A stretch of DNA of 64,000 nt. Origin: Natrinema saccharevitans (GTDB taxonomy: Archaea > Halobacteriota > Halobacteria > Halobacteriales > Natrialbaceae). This document shows positions 43,458-52,187 of this stretch, in pieces. The stretch's first letter is position 1, and each line of letters opens with the position of its first letter. Under the pieces are notes generated by a model. The model worked only from the letters and a program-made list of their open reading frames with translations, was not told the origin of the DNA and did not search any database. Location: NCBI RefSeq assembly GCF_001953745.1, contig NZ_LWLN01000002.1, positions 124,001 to 188,000 on the forward strand. The letters are read 5' to 3'. The translations under genes and the position numbers were made by a program.

Positions 43458-44372
43458 ATGACGGCGATCACCGCCGACGGAGTATCGAAGCGGTACGGAA
43501 CGGTCACGGCACTGGATCGCGTCTCCCTCTCGGTCGAGGAAGGTGAAATATTCGGGTTCCTCGGCCCGAACGGCGCCGGCAAGTCGACGTTTATCAACGT
43601 CCTGCTGGACTTCGTCCGGCCGACCGACGGTTCGGTCGAACTGTTCGGTCACGACTGCCAGGGCGAAGGGGTCGCGGCGCGCGAGCGCGTCGGCGTCCTC
43701 CCAGACGGCTACTCGGTGTTCGACCGACTCACCGGTCGCCAACACCTCGAGTACGCCGTCCGGTCGAAGGCCGCCGCCGACGATCCCGCCGAGATCCTCG
43801 ACCGCGTCGGGATTTCGGAGGCGGCCGACCGCCCGGCCAGCGACTACTCCACGGGGATGAAACAGCGCCTCATACTGGGCATGTCACTGGTCGGCGACCC
43901 CGACCTCCTCCTCCTCGACGAGCCGACGACGGGGCTCGACCCGAACGGGGCCGCCGAGATCCGATCGATCCTGCGCGAGGAGCGCGACCGCGGCGCTGCG
44001 ATCTTCTTCTCGAGTCACATCCTCGAGCAGGTCGAGGCGATCTGTGACCGCGTCGGTATCCTGCAGGACGGCGAACTGGTCGCCGTCGACACGATCGACG
44101 GGCTCCGCCAATCGATCGGCGGCGGTACCAAGCTCCTGATCGACGTCGACGAACTGGACGACGCGACGACCGAGACAGTCCGCAGCGTCGACGGGGTCGA
44201 GACGGCGACGGCCAGCGACGGGACGACGCTCGAGGTCACGTGTACGAACGACGCGAAGATGGACGTCGTGGTCGAACTCCAGCGCCTCGGTGCGGACGTG
44301 GTGAACTTCCGAACCGAGGAAGCCTCTCTGGAGGAAATGTTCGCCGCATACACGCGGGGCGGCAGAGCATGA
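43458..44372 (+). CDS. ABC-2 exporter ATP-binding protein
   Basis: The 304-residue ATPase has Walker A GPNGAGKST (about 37-45), a divergent signature YSTGMKQRL (about 134), Walker B LLLLDEPTTGLDP (about 152-164), an SSHILEQ H-loop and a C-terminal extension. Its stop overlaps the start of the first permease gene (ATGA at 44369), showing one operon: ATPase, permease, permease. It most resembles NosF/NatA-type ATPases. The likely role is export or membrane-protein assembly; the substrate is unknown. Confidence 0.9.
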   Translation: MTAITADGVSKRYGTVTALDRVSLSVEEGEIFGFLGPNGAGKSTFINVLLDFVRPTDGSVELFGHDCQGEGVAARERVGVLPDGYSVFDRLTGRQHLEYAVRSKAAADDPAEILDRVGISEAADRPASDYSTGMKQRLILGMSLVGDPDLLLLDEPTTGLDPNGAAEIRSILREERDRGAAIFFSSHILEQVEAICDRVGILQDGELVAVDTIDGLRQSIGGGTKLLIDVDELDDATTETVRSVDGVETATASDGTTLEVTCTNDAKMDVVVELQRLGADVVNFRTEEASLEEMFAAYTRGGRA

Positions 44373-45178
44373 ACTGGCGGGTCATCGCCCGGACGGACGC
44401 CGCGCTCGCTTCGACGCCGCGCTCGACTCGTCTGGTACTGGGGCTGCCGGCCGTCACGATCCTCGCGGCCGCGTACCTCTATCCGGTGTTCGGATCCGAG
44501 CCGATCACGACCGCTCGCTTCGCCGGGTTCGTGGACGGCTGGCTCGCGACCGTCGTTCCCCTGACCGGCGTCTTGCTGGGCCACGACGCGGTCGTCAGCG
44601 AGCGCGAGTCCGGCTCGCTGTTGCTCTCGCTGTCGCTGCCACACGGACGCGACGACTTCGTTCTCGGGAAAGTCATGAGCCGCGTCGGGCTGGTGAGCGG
44701 CGCCATCCTCGCCGCGATGGTCGTCGGTGCCGGACTCGTCGTCTACCCGTTCGGCCGACTCGAGGCCGTGCGGTTCTGTGGCTTCGTCGCGACGACCGTC
44801 GCGTTCGGCGCGATCTGGACCAACCTCGGGATCGCCGCATCGCTCTCGACCGCGACCAAACAGCGCGCGTTCGTGGTCGCGTTCGGGCTGTTCTTCCTGC
44901 TCGTCCTGGTCTGGGACGGTATCGCCGACGGACTCCGGTACGGGCTCGCTCGAGCCGGGCTCGTCGATGGGAGCCTTCCCGACCCCGTCCGGTTCGTCGT
45001 CGACCTCGATCCCGGTGCCGTCTTCCAGCGGGTCACCGCGGGCTTTTTCGATCCGAGTGCGACCGTCGACGGCCCGTGGTACCTCGGCGAGTGGGCCGCA
45101 CTGGCCGTCTTCCTCCTCTGGCTGATCGGCCCCGTGATGGTGACGTACAGCCGCTTTGCCGGGAGTGACCTCTCATGA
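44369..45178 (+). CDS. ABC-2 exporter permease 1
   Basis: This 269-residue protein begins MNWRVIARTDAALASTPRST and has six hydrophobic helices (near 24-42, 60-75, 105-130, 140-160, 168-190 and 240-260). SERESGSLLLSLSLPHGRDD is the ABC-2 loop also found in its sister permease. The start overlaps the ATPase stop by 4 nt, and its stop overlaps the next start by 4 nt, so all three are translationally coupled. It should form a heterodimeric channel with permease 2. Confidence 0.88.
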   Translation: MNWRVIARTDAALASTPRSTRLVLGLPAVTILAAAYLYPVFGSEPITTARFAGFVDGWLATVVPLTGVLLGHDAVVSERESGSLLLSLSLPHGRDDFVLGKVMSRVGLVSGAILAAMVVGAGLVVYPFGRLEAVRFCGFVATTVAFGAIWTNLGIAASLSTATKQRAFVVAFGLFFLLVLVWDGIADGLRYGLARAGLVDGSLPDPVRFVVDLDPGAVFQRVTAGFFDPSATVDGPWYLGEWAALAVFLLWLIGPVMVTYSRFAGSDLS

Positions 45179-45987
45179 GTTGGCGGGATATCGCACGCAA
45201 GGACGTTCACGATGCCAGCCGCTCTCGGACACTGTGGCTGCTGCTCGGGTTGCTATCGGTCCTGTCAGGCGGCTATGCCATCGCGTACGCCTCGGCGGGC
45301 GACGGGACGTTCGCGGGGTTCGTCACGGGTTCGGTCGGACTCGTCGACGGCTTCCTGCCGATACTCGGCATCTTGCTGGGCTATCGGTCGATCTCCGACG
45401 ACCGGACCGACGGGAGCCTCTTGCTCTCGCTGTCGCTGCCGCAGTCCCGCAGGGAGGTGCTCGTGGGAACGGCGGTCGGTCGGACGGTCACGTTGCTGGT
45501 ACCGACGCTGTTCGGGCTGTCGATCGCCGGACTGTACGCGGCGCTGCGGTACGGGACAACGGGCGCGATCGCGTATCCGTGGTTCCTGTTTGCGACCGCC
45601 CTCTACGGCGCGTCGTTCGTCGCGGTCGCCGTCGCGCTCTCGGCGTCGGTCACGGCGGATCGCCGGATCACCTACGGCGCGGTCGGGGGCTACCTGCTGT
45701 TGGTCGGTCTCTGGCGTCCCCTTAGCTCGTTCGCCGTGGCGTTTCTCCACCGCTTCGACACCAGTCTCGGGACGCCCGACTGGGCACTGTTCCTCCAGTT
45801 AGCTGAACCCGGTGAAGCGTACGCTCGCCTCCTCCACGCCGGGTTCGATATCGAGCGGGCGAATCGGTACGTCGGGGACGGCGTGCCGGCGTTCGTCGAC
45901 TGGTGGGTCGCGCTGGTGATCCTCGTCGGTTGGATTACGGTACCGCTGCTGATCGGCTCCCGTCAACTCGAGAGCGGAGATCTGTGA
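45175..45987 (+). CDS. ABC-2 exporter permease 2
   Basis: The 270-residue protein is a paralogue of permease 1: MSWRDIARKDVHDASRSRTL, the loop DDRTDGSLLLSLSLPQSRRE, and six helices with similar spacing. It ends with the pattern RQLESGDL, comparable to FAGSDLS in permease 1. It is the last gene of the operon; about 117 nt separate it from the 7TM kinase gene. Paired permeases with one ATPase suggest a heterodimeric exporter of the NosY/YhaP type. Confidence 0.88.
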   Translation: MSWRDIARKDVHDASRSRTLWLLLGLLSVLSGGYAIAYASAGDGTFAGFVTGSVGLVDGFLPILGILLGYRSISDDRTDGSLLLSLSLPQSRREVLVGTAVGRTVTLLVPTLFGLSIAGLYAALRYGTTGAIAYPWFLFATALYGASFVAVAVALSASVTADRRITYGAVGGYLLLVGLWRPLSSFAVAFLHRFDTSLGTPDWALFLQLAEPGEAYARLLHAGFDIERANRYVGDGVPAFVDWWVALVILVGWITVPLLIGSRQLESGDL

Positions 45988-46104
45988 TCCGTCGGTTCGT
46001 TTCTCCGCTGCTCCCTGGGGCCGCCGACGGACTGTCGCTCCGTCGTTGGACCGAGACCACTGCGTTCATTACATCCTGCTGTCAACACTGTACGAGAGCA
46101 ACCG

Positions 46105-47775
46105 ATGTCGCTCGTCGGGACGTCCGCGGCCGTCGCCCTCGACGTCACAGCGGTCGCGCTGCTTGGCTGGACGACGTGGCTGGCCGTCCAGTCACGCGAC
46201 CGACCCAGCGCGGCCCCGTTCATCGCCATACTGGCGATCCTCACGATCCTCGGGTCCCTGTCCGTCCTGGCGGAACTGCCGGGAACGTCGGCAGTTCCGT
46301 TGCTGCCGGCGGTCGTCGACCTCGGCCAGTTCGGCGTCGCGATCATCGTTCCGGGCGTCTGGGTCGTGTACGCGCTCAGCTACACCGGTCGGGGGACCGG
46401 TCTCACCCGGTGGCGTCTCGCCATGTTCCTCGTGATGGCGGCCCCGATCGCCCTGAGCGCTCTCGTCGTCGCCGTTCGGCCCCCGACCACCGTCGGCGAG
46501 CAACTGCTCGCATCGTTTATCGGGACGGAGATCATGCTGTTGCTGGGGCTGTTCACGTACGGTACCTATCTCCTGATCGGACACGGGTGGAACCACGCCC
46601 GTATCTCGAGGGGGCAGACCGCGATCGTGATCACGGCGGTCGCAGCACCGTATCTCGCCGGCGGGATGGGGAGTAGCGACCCCGTCGCGGACGGCGTCAC
46701 CGTCGGTCTCCTCGTCTCCGGCGGGCTGTTCGCAGTCGCAGTACGGCAGTATCCGGTGATGACCGGCTTTCCCAAGGCCGATTACGTCGCCCGAACACGC
46801 GTCGTCGAGGCGCTGCAAGAGGCCGTTATCGTACTCGACTGGGAAAATCACGTCCTCGACGCGAACGCGACGACCGCGGAGTTGTTCGGTCGGCCCCCGC
46901 AATCGATGATCGGTGATCCGATCAATTCGATCGTCTCCGGTCTCGAGGGCAGCGACCTCTCGGCGGGCGCTACAGGAACGATTCCGCTCCGAACGACGAA
47001 GGGACACCGACGGTTCCAGTTCAGCGTCTCAGCGGTCGGCGACGCCGAAAGCGATCCCGGTGGCGAGGCCGACCCAGTCGCTAGAATCGTGCTGTTACGT
47101 GACGTGACCGACCGCCAGACGCGCGAACAGCGACTCTCGGTACTCAACCGCGTTCTCCGACACAACGTCCGGAACGAACTGGATGTCGTCCTCGCATACG
47201 CCGACCGTATCGACGACGAGGACGTGCGGGACGGGATCCGCGACAGCGCGACCGACCTCGTCGAACTCAGCAGCAAGGCACGGGAGGCCGAGGACGTGAT
47301 GACCGCCAGTGCGGGTTCGCCTGAGCCGGTCGACCTCGCAGCCGTCGCGCGGGAAGTCGTCGAGCAGTACCGAACCGCCGAACGCCCGTGTGAGGTCTCG
47401 CTGTCCAGTCCGGACGAGTTACTCGTCTCGTCGCACCGGTCCGTCGTCCGACGCGTGCTGTCGGAACTCGTCGATAACGCGATCACGCACGCGGACCACT
47501 CGCCCCGAATCGAGATCACGGTCCGATCGAGTCCCGACGGTGCCGCCGAACTCGTCGTCGCGGACGACGGACCGGGGATCCCGACTCGAGAGCGAAAAAT
47601 ACTGGATAACGGAACGGAGACGCAACTCGAACACGGGAGCGGTATCGGGCTCTGGTTCGTCAACTGGGCCGTCACGCAACTGGGCGGGGACCTCTCCTTC
47701 CGTGAGAACGAGCCGACGGGGAGCGTCGTGACCGTTCGTCTCCACGACACCGAATATACGTCGCGACCGGGCTGA
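46105..47775 (+). CDS. Histidine kinase with 7TM sensor and PAS domain
   Basis: At 556 residues this protein has seven N-terminal helices (about 5-220, beginning LDVTAVALLGWTTWLAV). A PAS domain follows (VVEALQEAVIVLDWENHVLD, about 232-335), then HisKA-like RVLRHNVRNELDVVLAY (His near 354) and HATPase_c (SELVDNAITHADH, VADDGPGIPT, GSGIGLWFVNWAV). The sensor may detect a membrane-soluble or light-related signal. It follows the ABC exporter operon but has its own gap, so co-regulation is only possible. No receiver gene is adjacent. Confidence 0.9.
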   Translation: MSLVGTSAAVALDVTAVALLGWTTWLAVQSRDRPSAAPFIAILAILTILGSLSVLAELPGTSAVPLLPAVVDLGQFGVAIIVPGVWVVYALSYTGRGTGLTRWRLAMFLVMAAPIALSALVVAVRPPTTVGEQLLASFIGTEIMLLLGLFTYGTYLLIGHGWNHARISRGQTAIVITAVAAPYLAGGMGSSDPVADGVTVGLLVSGGLFAVAVRQYPVMTGFPKADYVARTRVVEALQEAVIVLDWENHVLDANATTAELFGRPPQSMIGDPINSIVSGLEGSDLSAGATGTIPLRTTKGHRRFQFSVSAVGDAESDPGGEADPVARIVLLRDVTDRQTREQRLSVLNRVLRHNVRNELDVVLAYADRIDDEDVRDGIRDSATDLVELSSKAREAEDVMTASAGSPEPVDLAAVAREVVEQYRTAERPCEVSLSSPDELLVSSHRSVVRRVLSELVDNAITHADHSPRIEITVRSSPDGAAELVVADDGPGIPTRERKILDNGTETQLEHGSGIGLWFVNWAVTQLGGDLSFRENEPTGSVVTVRLHDTEYTSRPG

Positions 47776-47871
47776 AAAGGAGAGTGTCGGCGGACGGATG
47801 GCGTGTTAACTGGCAGTGACTAACTCCGGCATTGCGGAGCGACAGGGGTCGGGCGAGCGGGATCGCCTTCC

Positions 47872-48132
47872 TCAACGGACTGTCGTCTGGTCACCTCGTT
47901 CGGCTTTGGCGTCACTGATGATCTTGTACACGTGCAGCGGAACGATGACGATACCCAGCAACAGGTAATTCAGCGTGAGGAAGTTGATCACCGCTAGCTT
48001 CGTCCGGCCGACGTAGTAGTACGCGGCCGGCGAGAGGACGAACGCTAACAGGATTGCCACGGGCGTGGACTTGTCTGCGAGCGGTTGTGCCTGTCGGCTG
48101 TCGTCGTCAGCGGGGGACCTATTCGTCGCCAT
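47872..48132 (-). CDS. Small two-helix membrane protein
   Basis: From ATG 48132 the protein has 86 residues: an acidic N-terminal tail, a helix (PVAILLAFVLSPAAYYYVG, about 24-42), a short KL turn and a second helix (VINFLTLNYLLLGIVIVPLH, about 48-67), with a charged tail. The GRTKLAVINF pattern recalls TM2-like proteins. The start overlaps the stop of a 37-codon frame upstream on the same strand, which suggests translational coupling. Confidence 0.65.
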   Translation of the reverse strand: MATNRSPADDDSRQAQPLADKSTPVAILLAFVLSPAAYYYVGRTKLAVINFLTLNYLLLGIVIVPLHVYKIISDAKAERGDQTTVR

Positions 48133-48232
48133 GGCTGTCAGAGGAATCGGTCGAGCGGCGCCGATGGAGCGCGTATCCGAGTGCGGTCGTGACCGCAACG
48201 ATGCTCGCTATCCTCGTCTTGCTCACCTCCAT
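48119..48232 (-). CDS. 37-residue peptide, possible single-helix protein
   Basis: ATG 48232 opens MEVSKTRIASIVAVTTALGY then ALHRRRSTDSSDSHGDE, one hydrophobic stretch (about 8-21) with a basic and then acidic tail. Its stop overlaps the start of the next gene by 14 nt. A CTATTTGT element lies about 25-30 nt upstream. This is only moderately supported because of its size. Confidence 0.4.
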   Translation of the reverse strand: MEVSKTRIASIVAVTTALGYALHRRRSTDSSDSHGDE

Positions 48233-48390
48233 GTCCGAACGATGGGACGGGAAACAAATAGACCCCGAGCCAGTGTCTCAACGCCGGAAACACCGGTGGG
48301 TTTCCGAAGTATAAGACTAACAACATGTATAGGGCAGGTGAAATAGATCACGTCCGTAGTATCGGCTGAAAGTAGGAAGTACTGGCGCAA

Positions 48391-48540
48391 CTACGATTCA
48401 TTCTGTGGTGACTCTTCCTGCCTTCCAAGGAGCCAGTAAAGCGCCAACCCCAATACAGCTTCGAGTGGCCCAATGAAAACTGCGCCAAGAAGAAACAGAA
48501 AATACGCCGCGAGACCATGGTTGGAACGGCTGGTATCCAT
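48391..48540 (-). CDS. Small membrane protein (49 residues)
   Basis: From ATG 48540 the frame gives MDTSRSNHGLAAYFLFLLGA then VFIGPLEAVLGLALYWLLGR and a polar tail to TAG at 48391. Two hydrophobic segments form a hairpin across the membrane. An in-frame GTG at 48567 would add nine residues. No family is known. The gene is one of a run of small membrane genes on this strand. Confidence 0.5.
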   Translation of the reverse strand: MDTSRSNHGLAAYFLFLLGAVFIGPLEAVLGLALYWLLGRQEESPQNES

Positions 48541-48587
48541 CCCGTTCTCGTATTCCGTTGATTCCACAAAAAGTTCTTCGCTCAGTT

Positions 48588-48694
48588 CGCAGACGTAGTT
48601 ACCGCAAGGACGGTGTCCGAGAATTGGAACAGAGTCGGGACAGGAGAGCGTGAATCGCGGTAAGTACAGCTACTTCAGTTATCACTCAGTCCAG
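48588..48694 (+). repeat. Imperfect repeat A, copy 1
   Basis: About 105 bases starting CGCAGACGTAGTT and containing TGTCCGAGAA, AGAGTCGG, AGGAGA, GGTAAGTACAG, CAGTTATCA and CCAG in this order match a second copy at 49841-49943 with roughly 70 percent identity by eye. This copy overlaps the last codons of the gene at 48675. Confidence 0.65.
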
Positions 48695-48857
48695 TAACTA
48701 AGACGATGAGGAGAAAGAGTGGAAGAGCAAATACGAGGATAATTGCGAAGAGAGAGATAGCGGTGAATAACGGCCCTGAGTTTCCAGAACCCGTCTGAAG
48801 GAAAATCAGGATGACAAACCACAGTGTCAGAGTCTGAAAGAAATCCATCACGTCCAT
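48675..48857 (-). CDS. Small membrane protein (60 residues)
   Basis: The frame from ATG 48857 encodes MDVMDFFQTLTLWFVILIFL, a short polar loop (QTGSGNSG) and a second long helix (LFTAISLFAIILVFALPLFL), ending GLSDN. GATTTAATAA about 30 nt upstream on the minus strand would serve as the TATA box. There are no charged residues inside the helices. No family was recognised. Confidence 0.6.
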   Translation of the reverse strand: MDVMDFFQTLTLWFVILIFLQTGSGNSGPLFTAISLFAIILVFALPLFLLIVLVTGLSDN

Positions 48858-48908
48858 GTTATTAACGCATTCAAATGAATGAATTATTAAATCGGTTTTG
48901 ATACGTTG

Positions 48909-48935
48909 GCACCTGTAGTTGCTGTTCAGTACAGG
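48909..48935 (+). repeat. 27-bp direct repeat B, copy 1
   Basis: GCACCTGTAGTTGCTGTTCA followed by GTACAGG is repeated at 49345-49371 with a single change. The two copies flank the membrane protein gene at 48944-49261. Confidence 0.85.
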
Positions 48936-48943
48936 GCGTGTAT

Positions 48944-49261
48944 TCAGCACCCCGGGCCGCACAGCATAAAGAACTGAATTGTGAACGTTGAGACGATAGC
49001 ACTCGCAACGAACACGACTCCGCCTGTGATGAGAGACCATTTCTGTGTGTATAAATAATGGGCAGCAACAGTGGGGATGAGGGCAAGAGTGAATGCTGGG
49101 AGGATGTGCATAAAGAGCAAGTCTGGCGCGTACACGTCCAGTCCCGAGGAATCGATGATGACCATCCACACAAACTGTGCAATGAGGGTGAGCGCAACCG
49201 CAACAAGACTTAGGAGACCAAACCTGAGGTCTCGAACTCCAATACTACTATTGGCGGCCAT
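48944..49261 (-). CDS. Three-helix membrane protein
   Basis: This 105-residue protein has helices at about 15-36 (LLSLVAVALTLIAQFVWMVI), 48-68 (LLFMHILPAFTLALIPTVAA) and 76-98, and ends CGPGC. No family was recognised. AT content is above the local average. It lies between two copies of a 27-bp repeat, which could allow deletion or amplification of the gene by recombination. It shares strand and style with the small membrane genes to its left. Confidence 0.6.
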   Translation of the reverse strand: MAANSSIGVRDLRFGLLSLVAVALTLIAQFVWMVIIDSSGLDVYAPDLLFMHILPAFTLALIPTVAAHYLYTQKWSLITGGVVFVASAIVSTFTIQFFMLCGPGC

Positions 49262-49344
49262 ACGAGGATTTTTATCAGTGATTCACATGAATATTTTGAC
49301 TGTATTGTGACTTCAATAGATGATGCACATTGCGTGCTGACTAC

Positions 49345-49371
49345 GCACCTGTAGTTGCTGTTCAGTATAGG
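49345..49371 (+). repeat. 27-bp direct repeat B, copy 2
   Basis: GCACCTGTAGTTGCTGTTCA followed by GTATAGG; the partner copy is at 48909-48935. This copy lies 15 nt before the start of the following lipoprotein gene. Confidence 0.85.
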
Positions 49372-49385
49372 AAACAGACTTACCA

Positions 49386-49814
49386 GTGCCGGGCGTGTCC
49401 CGAGGTGTGCAACGTCGCCAAGTTCTTCTCGGCGCGACCGCTGTGGTATCCGGCTTCACTGGCTGTATAGGCTCGTTCACGTCTGCCGGCTCCCTCAGAG
49501 AAGTGAACGTCGAACTTCGGAATGCGGACGATAGAGCACGGACGTTCCACCTTACGCTCGAAACCGAAGCTGGTGTGCTGGACTGGGAATCACACCACAT
49601 CGACGCGGACGTTGACAAGCGAGTGACGATGACGCCGAACGAAGAAGTCTCTCCCGTCGCGTTACACGGAGCCGTCGAGGATTTCGCAGGGAGTGTGGAC
49701 ATTCTAGGCGTTGACGACCTCGACGAGGACTACTGTCTTCGGTTCCATTTCTGGTCTGCACATCCCAGCGACGAGCGCCCGCAGATGGGGCAGGTCGCTG
49801 ACATCGAATGCTGA
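49386..49814 (+). CDS. Exported lipoprotein (Tat-like signal)
   Basis: From GTG 49386 the protein has 142 residues (GTG at 49407 is an alternative). RRQVLLGATAVVSGFTGC is a twin-arginine signal with lipobox, so the mature protein starts at the Cys near residue 27. The rest (about 28-142) looks like a small beta-sandwich: REVNVELRNADDRARTFHLT, then ITMTPNEEV-type strands and a C-terminal Cys. Similar two-signal architecture occurs in the lipoprotein at 51499. Function unknown. Confidence 0.65.
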   Translation: MPGVSRGVQRRQVLLGATAVVSGFTGCIGSFTSAGSLREVNVELRNADDRARTFHLTLETEAGVLDWESHHIDADVDKRVTMTPNEEVSPVALHGAVEDFAGSVDILGVDDLDEDYCLRFHFWSAHPSDERPQMGQVADIEC

Positions 49815-49840
49815 CTATGAACACGTTCTGCCGATAGATA

Positions 49841-49943
49841 CGCAGACGTAGTTCCTCCAGACACGATGTCCGAGAAGAACGGTAGAGTCGGTCAGGAGAT
49901 CGTGAGCCAATGGTAAGTACAGGTAGGACAGTTATCAAGCCAG
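49841..49943 (+). repeat. Imperfect repeat A, copy 2
   Basis: This is the partner of the copy at 48588-48694, in the same orientation. It is non-coding here and follows the lipoprotein gene. From its end to 50108 no gene is seen. Confidence 0.65.
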
Positions 49944-50108: not shown

Positions 50109-50585
50109 ATGCCAGTCGAACGTTCATTCGATGAGGACGAATTTAACCTTCCACTGAACTTCTCGACTCACGAGCGGTGCACAACGTGTGCGGAGTTCAG
50201 AGACAAGTTCAATCAATGTGTGGAATTCGAATCTATTGGGATGTGGGGTGGTCCAAGAATCGAAACAAAACAAGGCGAAACGATCGCTGAAGGTCACGAA
50301 AGCGTCCGGATGATACTCAACGCGGTGCTTGGAGAAGAATCAGACGACATAACGTCTTGTCGTATGTACGACTGTGACTCCGAAGCAACGCATACGGTTG
50401 AGATTGAGTTTACTGACCCTGAGGAATGGTTCACAACTTACTATTGTACTGATTGCGCAGACAAGGATAACTCCAATATCCAATCGGTATACGAGAATCT
50501 CTCTACCAAATTCTGTGATTATCGCCGGTGCTATAATTTGGTCCATGAATCACGGGACTACTGTCCGTCGCATCAGTACGAGTAG
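50109..50585 (+). CDS. Cysteine-rich, probably zinc-binding protein
   Basis: The 158-residue acidic protein has cysteine pairs suggestive of zinc sites: CTTCAEF (about 24-30), SCRMYDCDSEATHTV (about 83-97), YYCTDCADK (about 111-119) and FCDYRRCYNL with YCPSHQ at the end. No known family was recognised. GC content is lower than in the neighbouring genes to the right. Protein or nucleic-acid binding is possible. It has no clear operon partner. Confidence 0.6.
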   Translation: MPVERSFDEDEFNLPLNFSTHERCTTCAEFRDKFNQCVEFESIGMWGGPRIETKQGETIAEGHESVRMILNAVLGEESDDITSCRMYDCDSEATHTVEIEFTDPEEWFTTYYCTDCADKDNSNIQSVYENLSTKFCDYRRCYNLVHESRDYCPSHQYE

Positions 50586-50904
50586 TAGCGCCAGACATTC
50601 AAAGCATTCATAATGAAACTTTGTTTTCATTTCCAAGTAACCGATAGATGCCTATATTTCGCACGAGTACCGAAACTCCCCTCGCAAGTGGCAGAACCCT
50701 GGCGATCCGTTTGCAGTCCTGCATAACGGCCTTTTCACCGAGGACAGTGTCTAACAAATGGGTTTCAGCAGAGCCGAACGCTTTGCGACAGCGCACGAGG
50801 AACGACGGCGACGGCGGATACAGTCGCTGGTGCGGAGACGGGACTGTTTCGGAGCGAGAGACACCGCAACCGGGTTCTTGCTTCCGTGGCCACAGGGACT
50901 GTCC
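50586..50904. other. Intergenic region before LURP-one-like gene
   Basis: The frame upstream of 50905 is open but basic, unlike a haloarchaeal protein, so it is taken as non-coding. GGGTTTCAGCAGAGCC at 50761-50776 resembles the GGTTTCAACAGAGCC ends of the MITE-like repeats and may be another remnant. Confidence 0.35.
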
Positions 50905-51489
50905 ATGGAGGCGTCGAACTACGATATCGAGGGGCTCGACCTCTCGGCCGACCGGTACACCGTCGAACAGAACCTGATACGAAATAAGTACACGGCCCTC
51001 GATGACCGCGGTAATACGGTTCTCGAGGGGAAGCAAAAGACGTTCAAACTCAAAGAGGAATTCCCGTTCGTCGACGCGGACGGCGAAGACGTGTTCACGG
51101 TGAAGGCACAGCAGATCCGAGACTACGAGGGCCAGTACGTTCTCACGGACGCTCGGAGCGGCGATGACGTCGTCGTCCTCGACCACGAGTACTCGCTCCT
51201 CGAGCAGGTCACGGGAGCGAGCTGGACGATCCGCGACCCCGAGACCGACGCCGAACTGGCGGCGATCACATCTCGAAAGTTCGTCGGACTGTTCCGAACG
51301 GGGCTCTTGGGGAACGTGATTCCGCACCGCTACGAAATCACCGACGCCGACGGCGGGCACGTGGGTTCGATCTCGGGTCACCTCTCGATGAAAGACCGGT
51401 ACGACGTCGAGATCGACGACGCCAGTTCCGTCCCGCGGGCTCCGGTCGTGGCCGCCGCGATGGTCATCGATGCGATCGAGGGACACTGA
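50905..51489 (+). CDS. LURP-one-related protein (tubby-like fold)
   Basis: From ATG 50905 the protein has 194 residues. YTVEQNLIRNKYTALDDRGN, VLEGKQKTFKLKEEFPFVDA and the later YEITDADGGHVGSISG with KFVGLFRTGLLGNVI follow the LURP-one-related pattern, a 12-stranded barrel related to tubby and scramblase folds. Haloarchaeal members have no established role; lipid or membrane interaction is a guess from the fold. An 11-nt gap separates it from the next lipoprotein gene (51499), so the two are probably co-transcribed. Confidence 0.75.
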   Translation: MEASNYDIEGLDLSADRYTVEQNLIRNKYTALDDRGNTVLEGKQKTFKLKEEFPFVDADGEDVFTVKAQQIRDYEGQYVLTDARSGDDVVVLDHEYSLLEQVTGASWTIRDPETDAELAAITSRKFVGLFRTGLLGNVIPHRYEITDADGGHVGSISGHLSMKDRYDVEIDDASSVPRAPVVAAAMVIDAIEGH

Positions 51490-51498
51490 TCCCGAACC

Positions 51499-52047
51499 AT
51501 GGACGGACACGCTCCCTCGAGTGGCACCACTCGCTGCCGAGATGGTGGCCAGAAACGGACGTCTCGAGACGGCACCGACACCAGACGAGCGGTTCTCGCT
51601 TCGAGCGCAACGACACTGCTGGCGGTAACGGCTGGCTGTACGACCGTGATGGACTTCGTCGGGGATCGGTTGCTCGAACAGGTCAACGTGTTCAACGAAA
51701 CCGATCGGCGAGTCACCGGTTCCATTGCGGTCGTCGATCCCGCCGGTGAGACGGCCCTCGACGAGACGTTCGATCTCGCTCCGTCGGATTCGGGAGACGA
51801 CGAAGGGGCGGCCTCCGGAGACGACGAACAGTCCGTCGCAGTGTACGACGACGTGTGGGGCGAGGCCGGATCGTACGAAGCGAACGTCGAACTGACCGGG
51901 ACGGACATAGACGGGCAATCGCAGGCGAGCGAAATGGTGACGATCGACGATTCCGACGAGCAGTTGCTCGGCGTCGCACTCGGCTCCGAGGCGGTGGACG
52001 AACCGATCGGCTTCCGCGTCGGCGAGAGCCTCTCGGATCTGGCCTGA
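51499..52047 (+). CDS. Tat-exported lipoprotein
   Basis: The 182-residue protein has a long N-terminal region and a twin-arginine signal with lipobox (DTRRAVLASSATTLLAVTAG then C, about 27-47). The mature part begins TTVMDFVGDRLLEQVNVFNE and shows a small beta-sandwich with an Asp/Ser-rich insertion (SDSGDDEGAASGDDEQS). A later methionine in front of the signal is absent, so the start remains uncertain. Together with the LURP-one-like gene it may form a surface-related operon. Confidence 0.7.
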   Translation: MDGHAPSSGTTRCRDGGQKRTSRDGTDTRRAVLASSATTLLAVTAGCTTVMDFVGDRLLEQVNVFNETDRRVTGSIAVVDPAGETALDETFDLAPSDSGDDEGAASGDDEQSVAVYDDVWGEAGSYEANVELTGTDIDGQSQASEMVTIDDSDEQLLGVALGSEAVDEPIGFRVGESLSDLA

Positions 52048-52187
52048 CGGGAGACGGTCTCTCATACCTTCCACCCGATCCACCCCTTTCATCCGGACAG
52101 CCTCGAGACCGAGGACGCCCGAATGTGGCTGCTGAGAGACGAGCCGGTTTCCGACGTTGGGACCGAAATCGGTAATCGCGACGTCAC

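Follow-up and report, generated by a model that had tools for sequence, protein, structure and literature searches.

A candidate recombinase-less gene-cassette cluster in Natrinema saccharevitans, and a probable integron-like system with a non-IntI recombinase in haloarchaea

In integrons, the attC recombination site carries an R-box, with the consensus GTTRRRY, at the crossover. In the pdif/XerCD modules of Acinetobacter plasmids, the sites alternate in orientation and are served by the XerC and XerD of the host. Integrons and clusters of attC sites that have no integrase are present in bacteria and in nine archaeal phyla, according to a paper whose text has no match for haloarchaeal terms (PMC9668308). 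No prior description of a haloarchaeal cassette system was found in the literature within reach, beyond which lie most subscription papers and preprints, and none appears in passages of PMC8371274, PMC9668308, PMC4158269, and PMC7923331.

The repeats described here and an associated tyrosine recombinase are believed, on sequence comparison and with a probability of about three in four, to form a cassette system that resembles the integron but uses a recombinase outside the IntI family. As in integrons, the cassettes stand in directly oriented arrays with one recombination site per cassette and mostly unknown cargo; the tyrosine recombinase gene points outward from the array and has a platform site next to its start, and integrase-less clusters occur elsewhere. 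Unlike integron integrases, the haloarchaeal recombinase is without the N-terminal part of the integron-integrase model and scores 37 bits against a cut-off of 265 (TIGR02249, integrase_gron) and 14.3 bits against 435 (NF011946). Likewise, the sites differ from attC in keeping a conserved sequence core, and complementary pairs between the inner arms are near expectation at all ten arm positions of 119 sites; attC-like single-strand hairpin sites were rejected on this lack of covariation. The GTTRRRY motif is not apparent in the site consensus, as read by eye.

Other systems are similar in part. The 28-bp core with inverted arms and a short spacer, and the small mobile modules, recall pdif/XerCD, whereas only 2 of 56 neighbouring haloarchaeal pairs are inverted and a dedicated recombinase stands at the array end. 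A variable spacer, or coupling sequence, between conserved arms is also tolerated by Tn916-type integrases; unlike Tn916, no self-contained transposon was seen and the cassettes have no integrase. The best NCBIfam match of the recombinase is archaeal XerA (recomb_XerA_Arch, 41.9 bits, cut-off 220), from which it differs in being tied to cassette arrays, and its length of about 195 aa is like that of short FimB/FimE-like recombinases. Because it aligns only from position 86 of the XerA model, the N-terminal domain is missing.

Sites and candidate cassettes in the window

The window is the whole 64,000 nt stretch analysed (C2:124001-188000), from a genome of 3.98 Mb in three contigs. The region of interest, with 46-54 % GC where the surroundings have 60-69 %, is part of a low-GC island and was described in an earlier note as a run of small membrane genes and a lipoprotein gene with two kinds of local repeat. 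The gene content is supported by hydropathy: the ORFs of 58, ~60, and 105 aa have one to several membrane segments, and that of 142 aa has a single N-terminal one, which by eye resembles a haloarchaeal lipoprotein signal. Pfam gave no match for the four window proteins tested, among them those of 58, 142, and 158 aa.

Both repeats are real. The copies of the 27-bp direct repeat (48909-48935 and 49345-49371) are identical at 26 of 27 positions, flank the 105-aa membrane gene as had been noted, and are the only two in the genome at up to three mismatches. The longer imperfect repeat at the outer sides, previously put at about 105 bp, has direct copies at 48588-48684 and 49841-49937, which align over ~100 columns with small gaps; the local alignment score is 76, against a maximum of 30 across 200 dinucleotide shuffles. 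Its second copy is intergenic, as claimed, and so, contrary to the note, is essentially the first, whose overlap with the ~60-aa ORF is limited to about 10 nt at the end of that ORF. The long repeat is not local but dispersed, with matches in three further regions of contig C1 (four copies between genes that look by eye like mutS and mutL, another four near 2.77-2.78 Mb, and one near 0.447 Mb), and the two repeats look like one family, the 27-bp repeat resembling the outer arms minus the core. Gene duplication, which the note had already doubted, is ruled out as their origin, since they are intergenic and dispersed.

Each full site comprises a U arm, a core TGTCCGAGAA-7n-AGAGTCGGACA, in which inverted arms of ~10 bp enclose a variable 7-bp spacer, and a D arm. 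The outer arms read GTAnTTACCG (U) and CGGTAAGTACAG (D); in the aligned copies of this genome, where they are looser than the core, they read GTAnTTACCGCnAG and GGAGATCGTGAACCAGCGGTAAGTACAG.

A 108-aa membrane ORF (47872-48198) lies just outside the noted region, followed by the gene of a 58-aa small membrane protein (48391-48567, minus strand), which is supported by synteny and is common to the relatives G184, G047, and G154. The first full site, w1 (48588-48684, plus strand), has its U arm at 48595-48608, its core at 48614-48642, with one extra G in the right arm, and a D arm ending ...GTAAGTACAG at 48669. Between w1 and the first coreless site, r1 (the 27-bp repeat at 48909-48935, plus strand), is the gene of the ~60-aa small membrane protein (48675-48857, minus strand), which has a single 49 % match (L049) among the fetched loci. 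Site r1 is a U-like arm, CCTGTAGTTGC, fused to a D-like arm, TGTTCAGTACAGG. The 105-aa gene (48944-49261, minus strand) is followed by the second coreless site, r2 (49345-49371, plus strand), the gene of the 142-aa predicted lipoprotein (49386-49814, plus strand), and the second full site, w2 (49841-49937, plus strand), which has a U arm, a core at 49867-49894, and a D arm ending ...GTAAGTACAG. After w2, an ORF for a 158-aa cysteine-rich protein (50109-50585, plus strand) lies inside a variable segment, the right edge of which is at 50705-50714, where homology to the relatives restarts.

Four sites in the same direction, two full and two coreless, therefore divide the region into one-gene cassettes. 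There is no recombinase match on the window contig, all five in the genome being on another contig, and the cluster is thus recombinase-less. With the same confidence as for the system as a whole, and again from sequence, the segment at ~48.59-50.71 kb is probably a small gene-cassette cluster belonging to it.

Comparison with G184, G047, and G154 shows a common left flank with different cassettes. In G184 the left flank (44077-48669) is 95.8 % identical, 3.7 kb of unrelated sequence precedes the next match, the 105-aa cassette at 48928-49369 (95 %), and homology restarts at 50714 after 142 bp. In G047, 376 bp separate site w1 from the right block. The 105-aa cassette of G154 and a copy of the right block are 466 bp apart there, with the left flank at another place. 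The segment with the 158-aa gene is missing from this locus in G184 and G047. The 105-aa gene and r2 form a cassette (48928-49369) that stands between other neighbours in G184 and G154, at 95 % identity; its first base comes directly after ...AGTACAG and the 27-bp repeat closes it, the match to G184 and G154 stopping at the right edge of r2, ...AGTATA(G). Exchange at the coreless sites of the window appears to take place at their outer edge (TACAG), and a second exchange route is therefore likely there, perhaps homologous recombination. Coreless elements related to the 27-bp repeat are present in L084, L166, L184, L186, and L188. When the window segment was compared with 152 fetched loci (blastn and tblastn), mainly sites and one weak protein match were found.

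The block to the right (50705-52052), with a LURP-one-like gene (50758-51489, named by eye) and a further lipoprotein-like ORF, itself changes place; it has several copies in the relatives, with at least two positions in G154.

The site family and its recombinase

With sites called by mismatch count (up to three in the core), 26 of the 29 genus genomes carry the core, at 135 sites, and the other three have none; a reversed-pattern control gave 0 hits at the same threshold. Across the order, it was found in 54 of 293 genomes, with three control hits. Conservation per position in 119 cores is 84-100 % in the left arm and 69-97 % in the right arm, and these cores have 78 different spacers. Of neighbouring pairs within 4 kb, 54 out of 56 are in the same direction (p=4e-14), where ~0.57 pairs would be expected by chance placement. 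There are 29 clusters of at least two sites, the largest an array of nine (G255), which have the form by which integron arrays are defined (at least two sites <4 kb apart, same direction).

The last site at 2.78 Mb is followed downstream by a gene for a 195-aa protein of the Phage_integrase family (PF00589, 67.7 bits, cut-off 27.1). R46, K73, H140, R143, and Y176, which are taken to be the catalytic residues of a tyrosine recombinase (R, K, H-x-x-R, Y), are invariant in all 11 recombinases compared. AlphaFold prediction from 11 sequences was too poor for use (pLDDT 43.5). This genome has three near-identical copies, one paralogue at 47 %, and a fifth, weak match at 29 %; eight of the 29 genus genomes have no recombinase match.

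In 15 of 16 close copies (>=79 % identity, intact N-terminus), taken from 27 of the 31 recombinase loci with truncated or N-terminally incomplete ones excluded, a core with up to three mismatches lies 111-116 bp before the recombinase start, as an integron platform site lies beside the integrase gene. The 16th has a core with five mismatches at 111 bp. The 19 loci that come from named genomes contain 21 cores, every one of them on the recombinase strand and before its gene, with none elsewhere and a control of 0, and 12 of these loci have the core at 109-132 bp; they overlap the genome-set loci (for example L095 and L093), and the two distance counts are therefore not independent. Variant cores are present at 110-114 bp in L103, L104, L105, L109, and L110, and the exceptions to the fixed distance are L108, L112, and L129. 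Among the matches listed, nine full close copies share a module from the core to the recombinase stop codon and differ on the left. A weaker second palindrome, TGTCCGG...CCGGACG, stands just before the recombinase start codon (L035:14710-14750 and other modules) and could be an autoregulatory binding site.

The 45-47 % paralogue has its own palindromic core, TGTCCGCGAA-7n-TTCG(C/A)GGACA, at 114 bp in seven of eight cases. This type-2 core is present in 33 of 125 genomes of the family, several times near type-1 sites. Type-2 sites were seen within or beside type-1 arrays at G000:C1:2771653 and several others, and both recombinases may therefore share arrays. Among six loci taken from 44 matching plasmid records, distant relatives of the recombinase have inverted-arm cores upstream in Haladaptatus (126 bp) and Halorubrum lacusprofundi (144 bp), and one with weaker arms in Haloarcula (109 bp); the Haloterrigena and Halorubrum ezzemoulense loci have no convincing core at that distance. 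In H. lacusprofundi pHLAC01 (L193), a methyltransferase and MvaI/BcnI restriction gene pair is just upstream of the distant recombinase relative and its core-like palindrome.

Apparent cassette exchange and its possible explanations

When 58 segments were compared with all arrays, there were 24 matches, reciprocal ones included; both flanks had changed in 22 and one flank in two. By sequence comparison, cassettes are thus found in exchanged contexts, as in integrons. For example, L077:8075-8806 matches L149:6599-7302 end to end over 704 columns at 96 %, with both neighbours changed; the two loci are nearly identical up to TGTCCGAGAA and unrelated beyond it. The same cassette adjoins the recombinase module in G304 (platform position) and another cassette in G193 (internal position). 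Likewise, L079:6515-7246 matches L150:5018-5711 over 703 columns at 95 %. Among the matches listed, L034:8075-8863 and L084:7874-8667 are the same 0.8-kb segment (91 %), which in two genomes stands on opposite sides of the neighbouring site, as if inserted in the other orientation.

Junctions were compared excluding duplicates and any site closer than about 300-330 bp to the end of its locus. In 155 platform pairs, identity of the U arm (0.33) and of the spacer (0.38) is at background (0.33 and 0.34) and the right side is conserved. Of eight independent left-shared pairs from loci other than that of the window, two have a D arm that follows the left flank, and only four a spacer that does so; homology reaches the outer arm edge, rather than the core, in two of the eight and in the window cassette. 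Most junctions are therefore in the core, with some at the outer arm edge. That the spacer always moves with the upstream cassette was considered and failed (four of eight pairs, three of six in a smaller set).

It is possible that arrays arose by tandem accretion of small integrative elements, such as decayed proviruses or plasmids, at one attachment site, with the repeats as attL/attR scars and the recombinase as an ordinary element integrase. This is consistent with membership of the Phage_integrase family, with distant relatives on haloarchaeal plasmids and in one Haloferax phage (33 %), and with tandem integration, which is known in archaea (PMC8371274). It is nevertheless unlikely, as the 57 segments bounded by neighbouring sites on one strand, at spacings of 150-4000 bp, measure 776 bp at the median (49 % GC) and usually contain one or two ORFs, the segment proteins scanned include no identified recombinase (one has a transposase domain), the recombinase is at one array end only, and single cassettes recur alone between other neighbours.

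A mobile repeat, an IS end or MITE-like, scattered in low-GC islands, with arrays formed by homologous recombination between copies, would account for the repeat length of ~100 bp, for the inverted outer arms, and for outer-edge exchange in some pairs, the window included. A transposase-like gene between two sites in L034 (L034:6198-7130, IS1595-type by eye), in the mutS-mutL cluster, points the same way, and has DNA relatives in L043 and L079 among the matches listed. Set against this are the shared direction of neighbours (54 out of 56), the fixed distance of 111-116 bp between core and recombinase, the position of junctions within the core, whose spacer varies, and, among the matches listed, platform homology that spans core to recombinase stop; plain IS ends were rejected on these grounds, and the explanation as a whole is improbable. 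Of the two roles suggested in the note, RNA or recombination site, the second is favoured by the direct arrays, the recombinase gene at fixed distance, and neighbours that change at the sites, whereas a structured RNA or regulatory element common to small genes is very improbable, for although the arms are partly complementary and could fold and the sites are intergenic, Rfam gave no match for the window or for two arrays, the inner arms do not covary, predicted folds are inconsistent between copies, and gene orientation relative to the sites is mixed (68 versus 43 ORFs).

In the integron-like system, a cassette would be one or two genes with one recombination site, and the core before the ~195-aa tyrosine recombinase would be the platform (attI-like) site. 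The core would be the point at which the recombinase cuts, so that cassettes are released or captured as circles (D-genes-U), and incoming cassettes would be inserted beside the recombinase gene, giving U-core-I at the platform and U-core-D within the array. It may act on the window cluster from a distance, in trans. Classical tyrosine recombinases disfavour recombining sites with unlike spacers, and the integron-like reading is strained because sites with different spacers would need to recombine.

Cargo and significance

Of 60 segment ORFs of at least 125 aa, 40 were analysed with Pfam and/or PADLOC and 20 with neither. The scanned cargo includes a restriction enzyme (AspBHI/Mrr), an AbiLi/AriA-like ATPase, GIY-YIG and DUF6884 proteins, an acetyltransferase, a methyltransferase, and an alpha/beta hydrolase; many of the scanned proteins have no Pfam or PADLOC match.

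The chances are slightly better than even that haloarchaea evolved their own cassette-capture system, independent of IntI. It would comprise a catalytic-domain-only recombinase and cognate palindromic cores that change with the subfamily (TGTCCGAGAA and TGTCCGCGAA types, with variants in Haladaptatus, Halorubrum, Salinarchaeum, and Natronosalvus), mixed arrays, and heteroduplex-tolerant exchange over a variable 7-bp spacer, feeding low-GC islands with small membrane, restriction, abortive-infection-like, and unknown genes. If so, a minimal recombinase may tolerate unlike spacers, and recombinase, platform, and cassettes are short and could be tested in standard haloarchaeal hosts. The sites would provide a sequence signature with which to find cassettes and their cargo, including restriction enzymes, abortive-infection-like ATPases, and many unknown families. 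The logic of the integron would have arisen at least twice, haloarchaea would own a dedicated entry point for small genes, and the low-GC, orphan-rich islands in their genomes would have a mechanism that can be tested.
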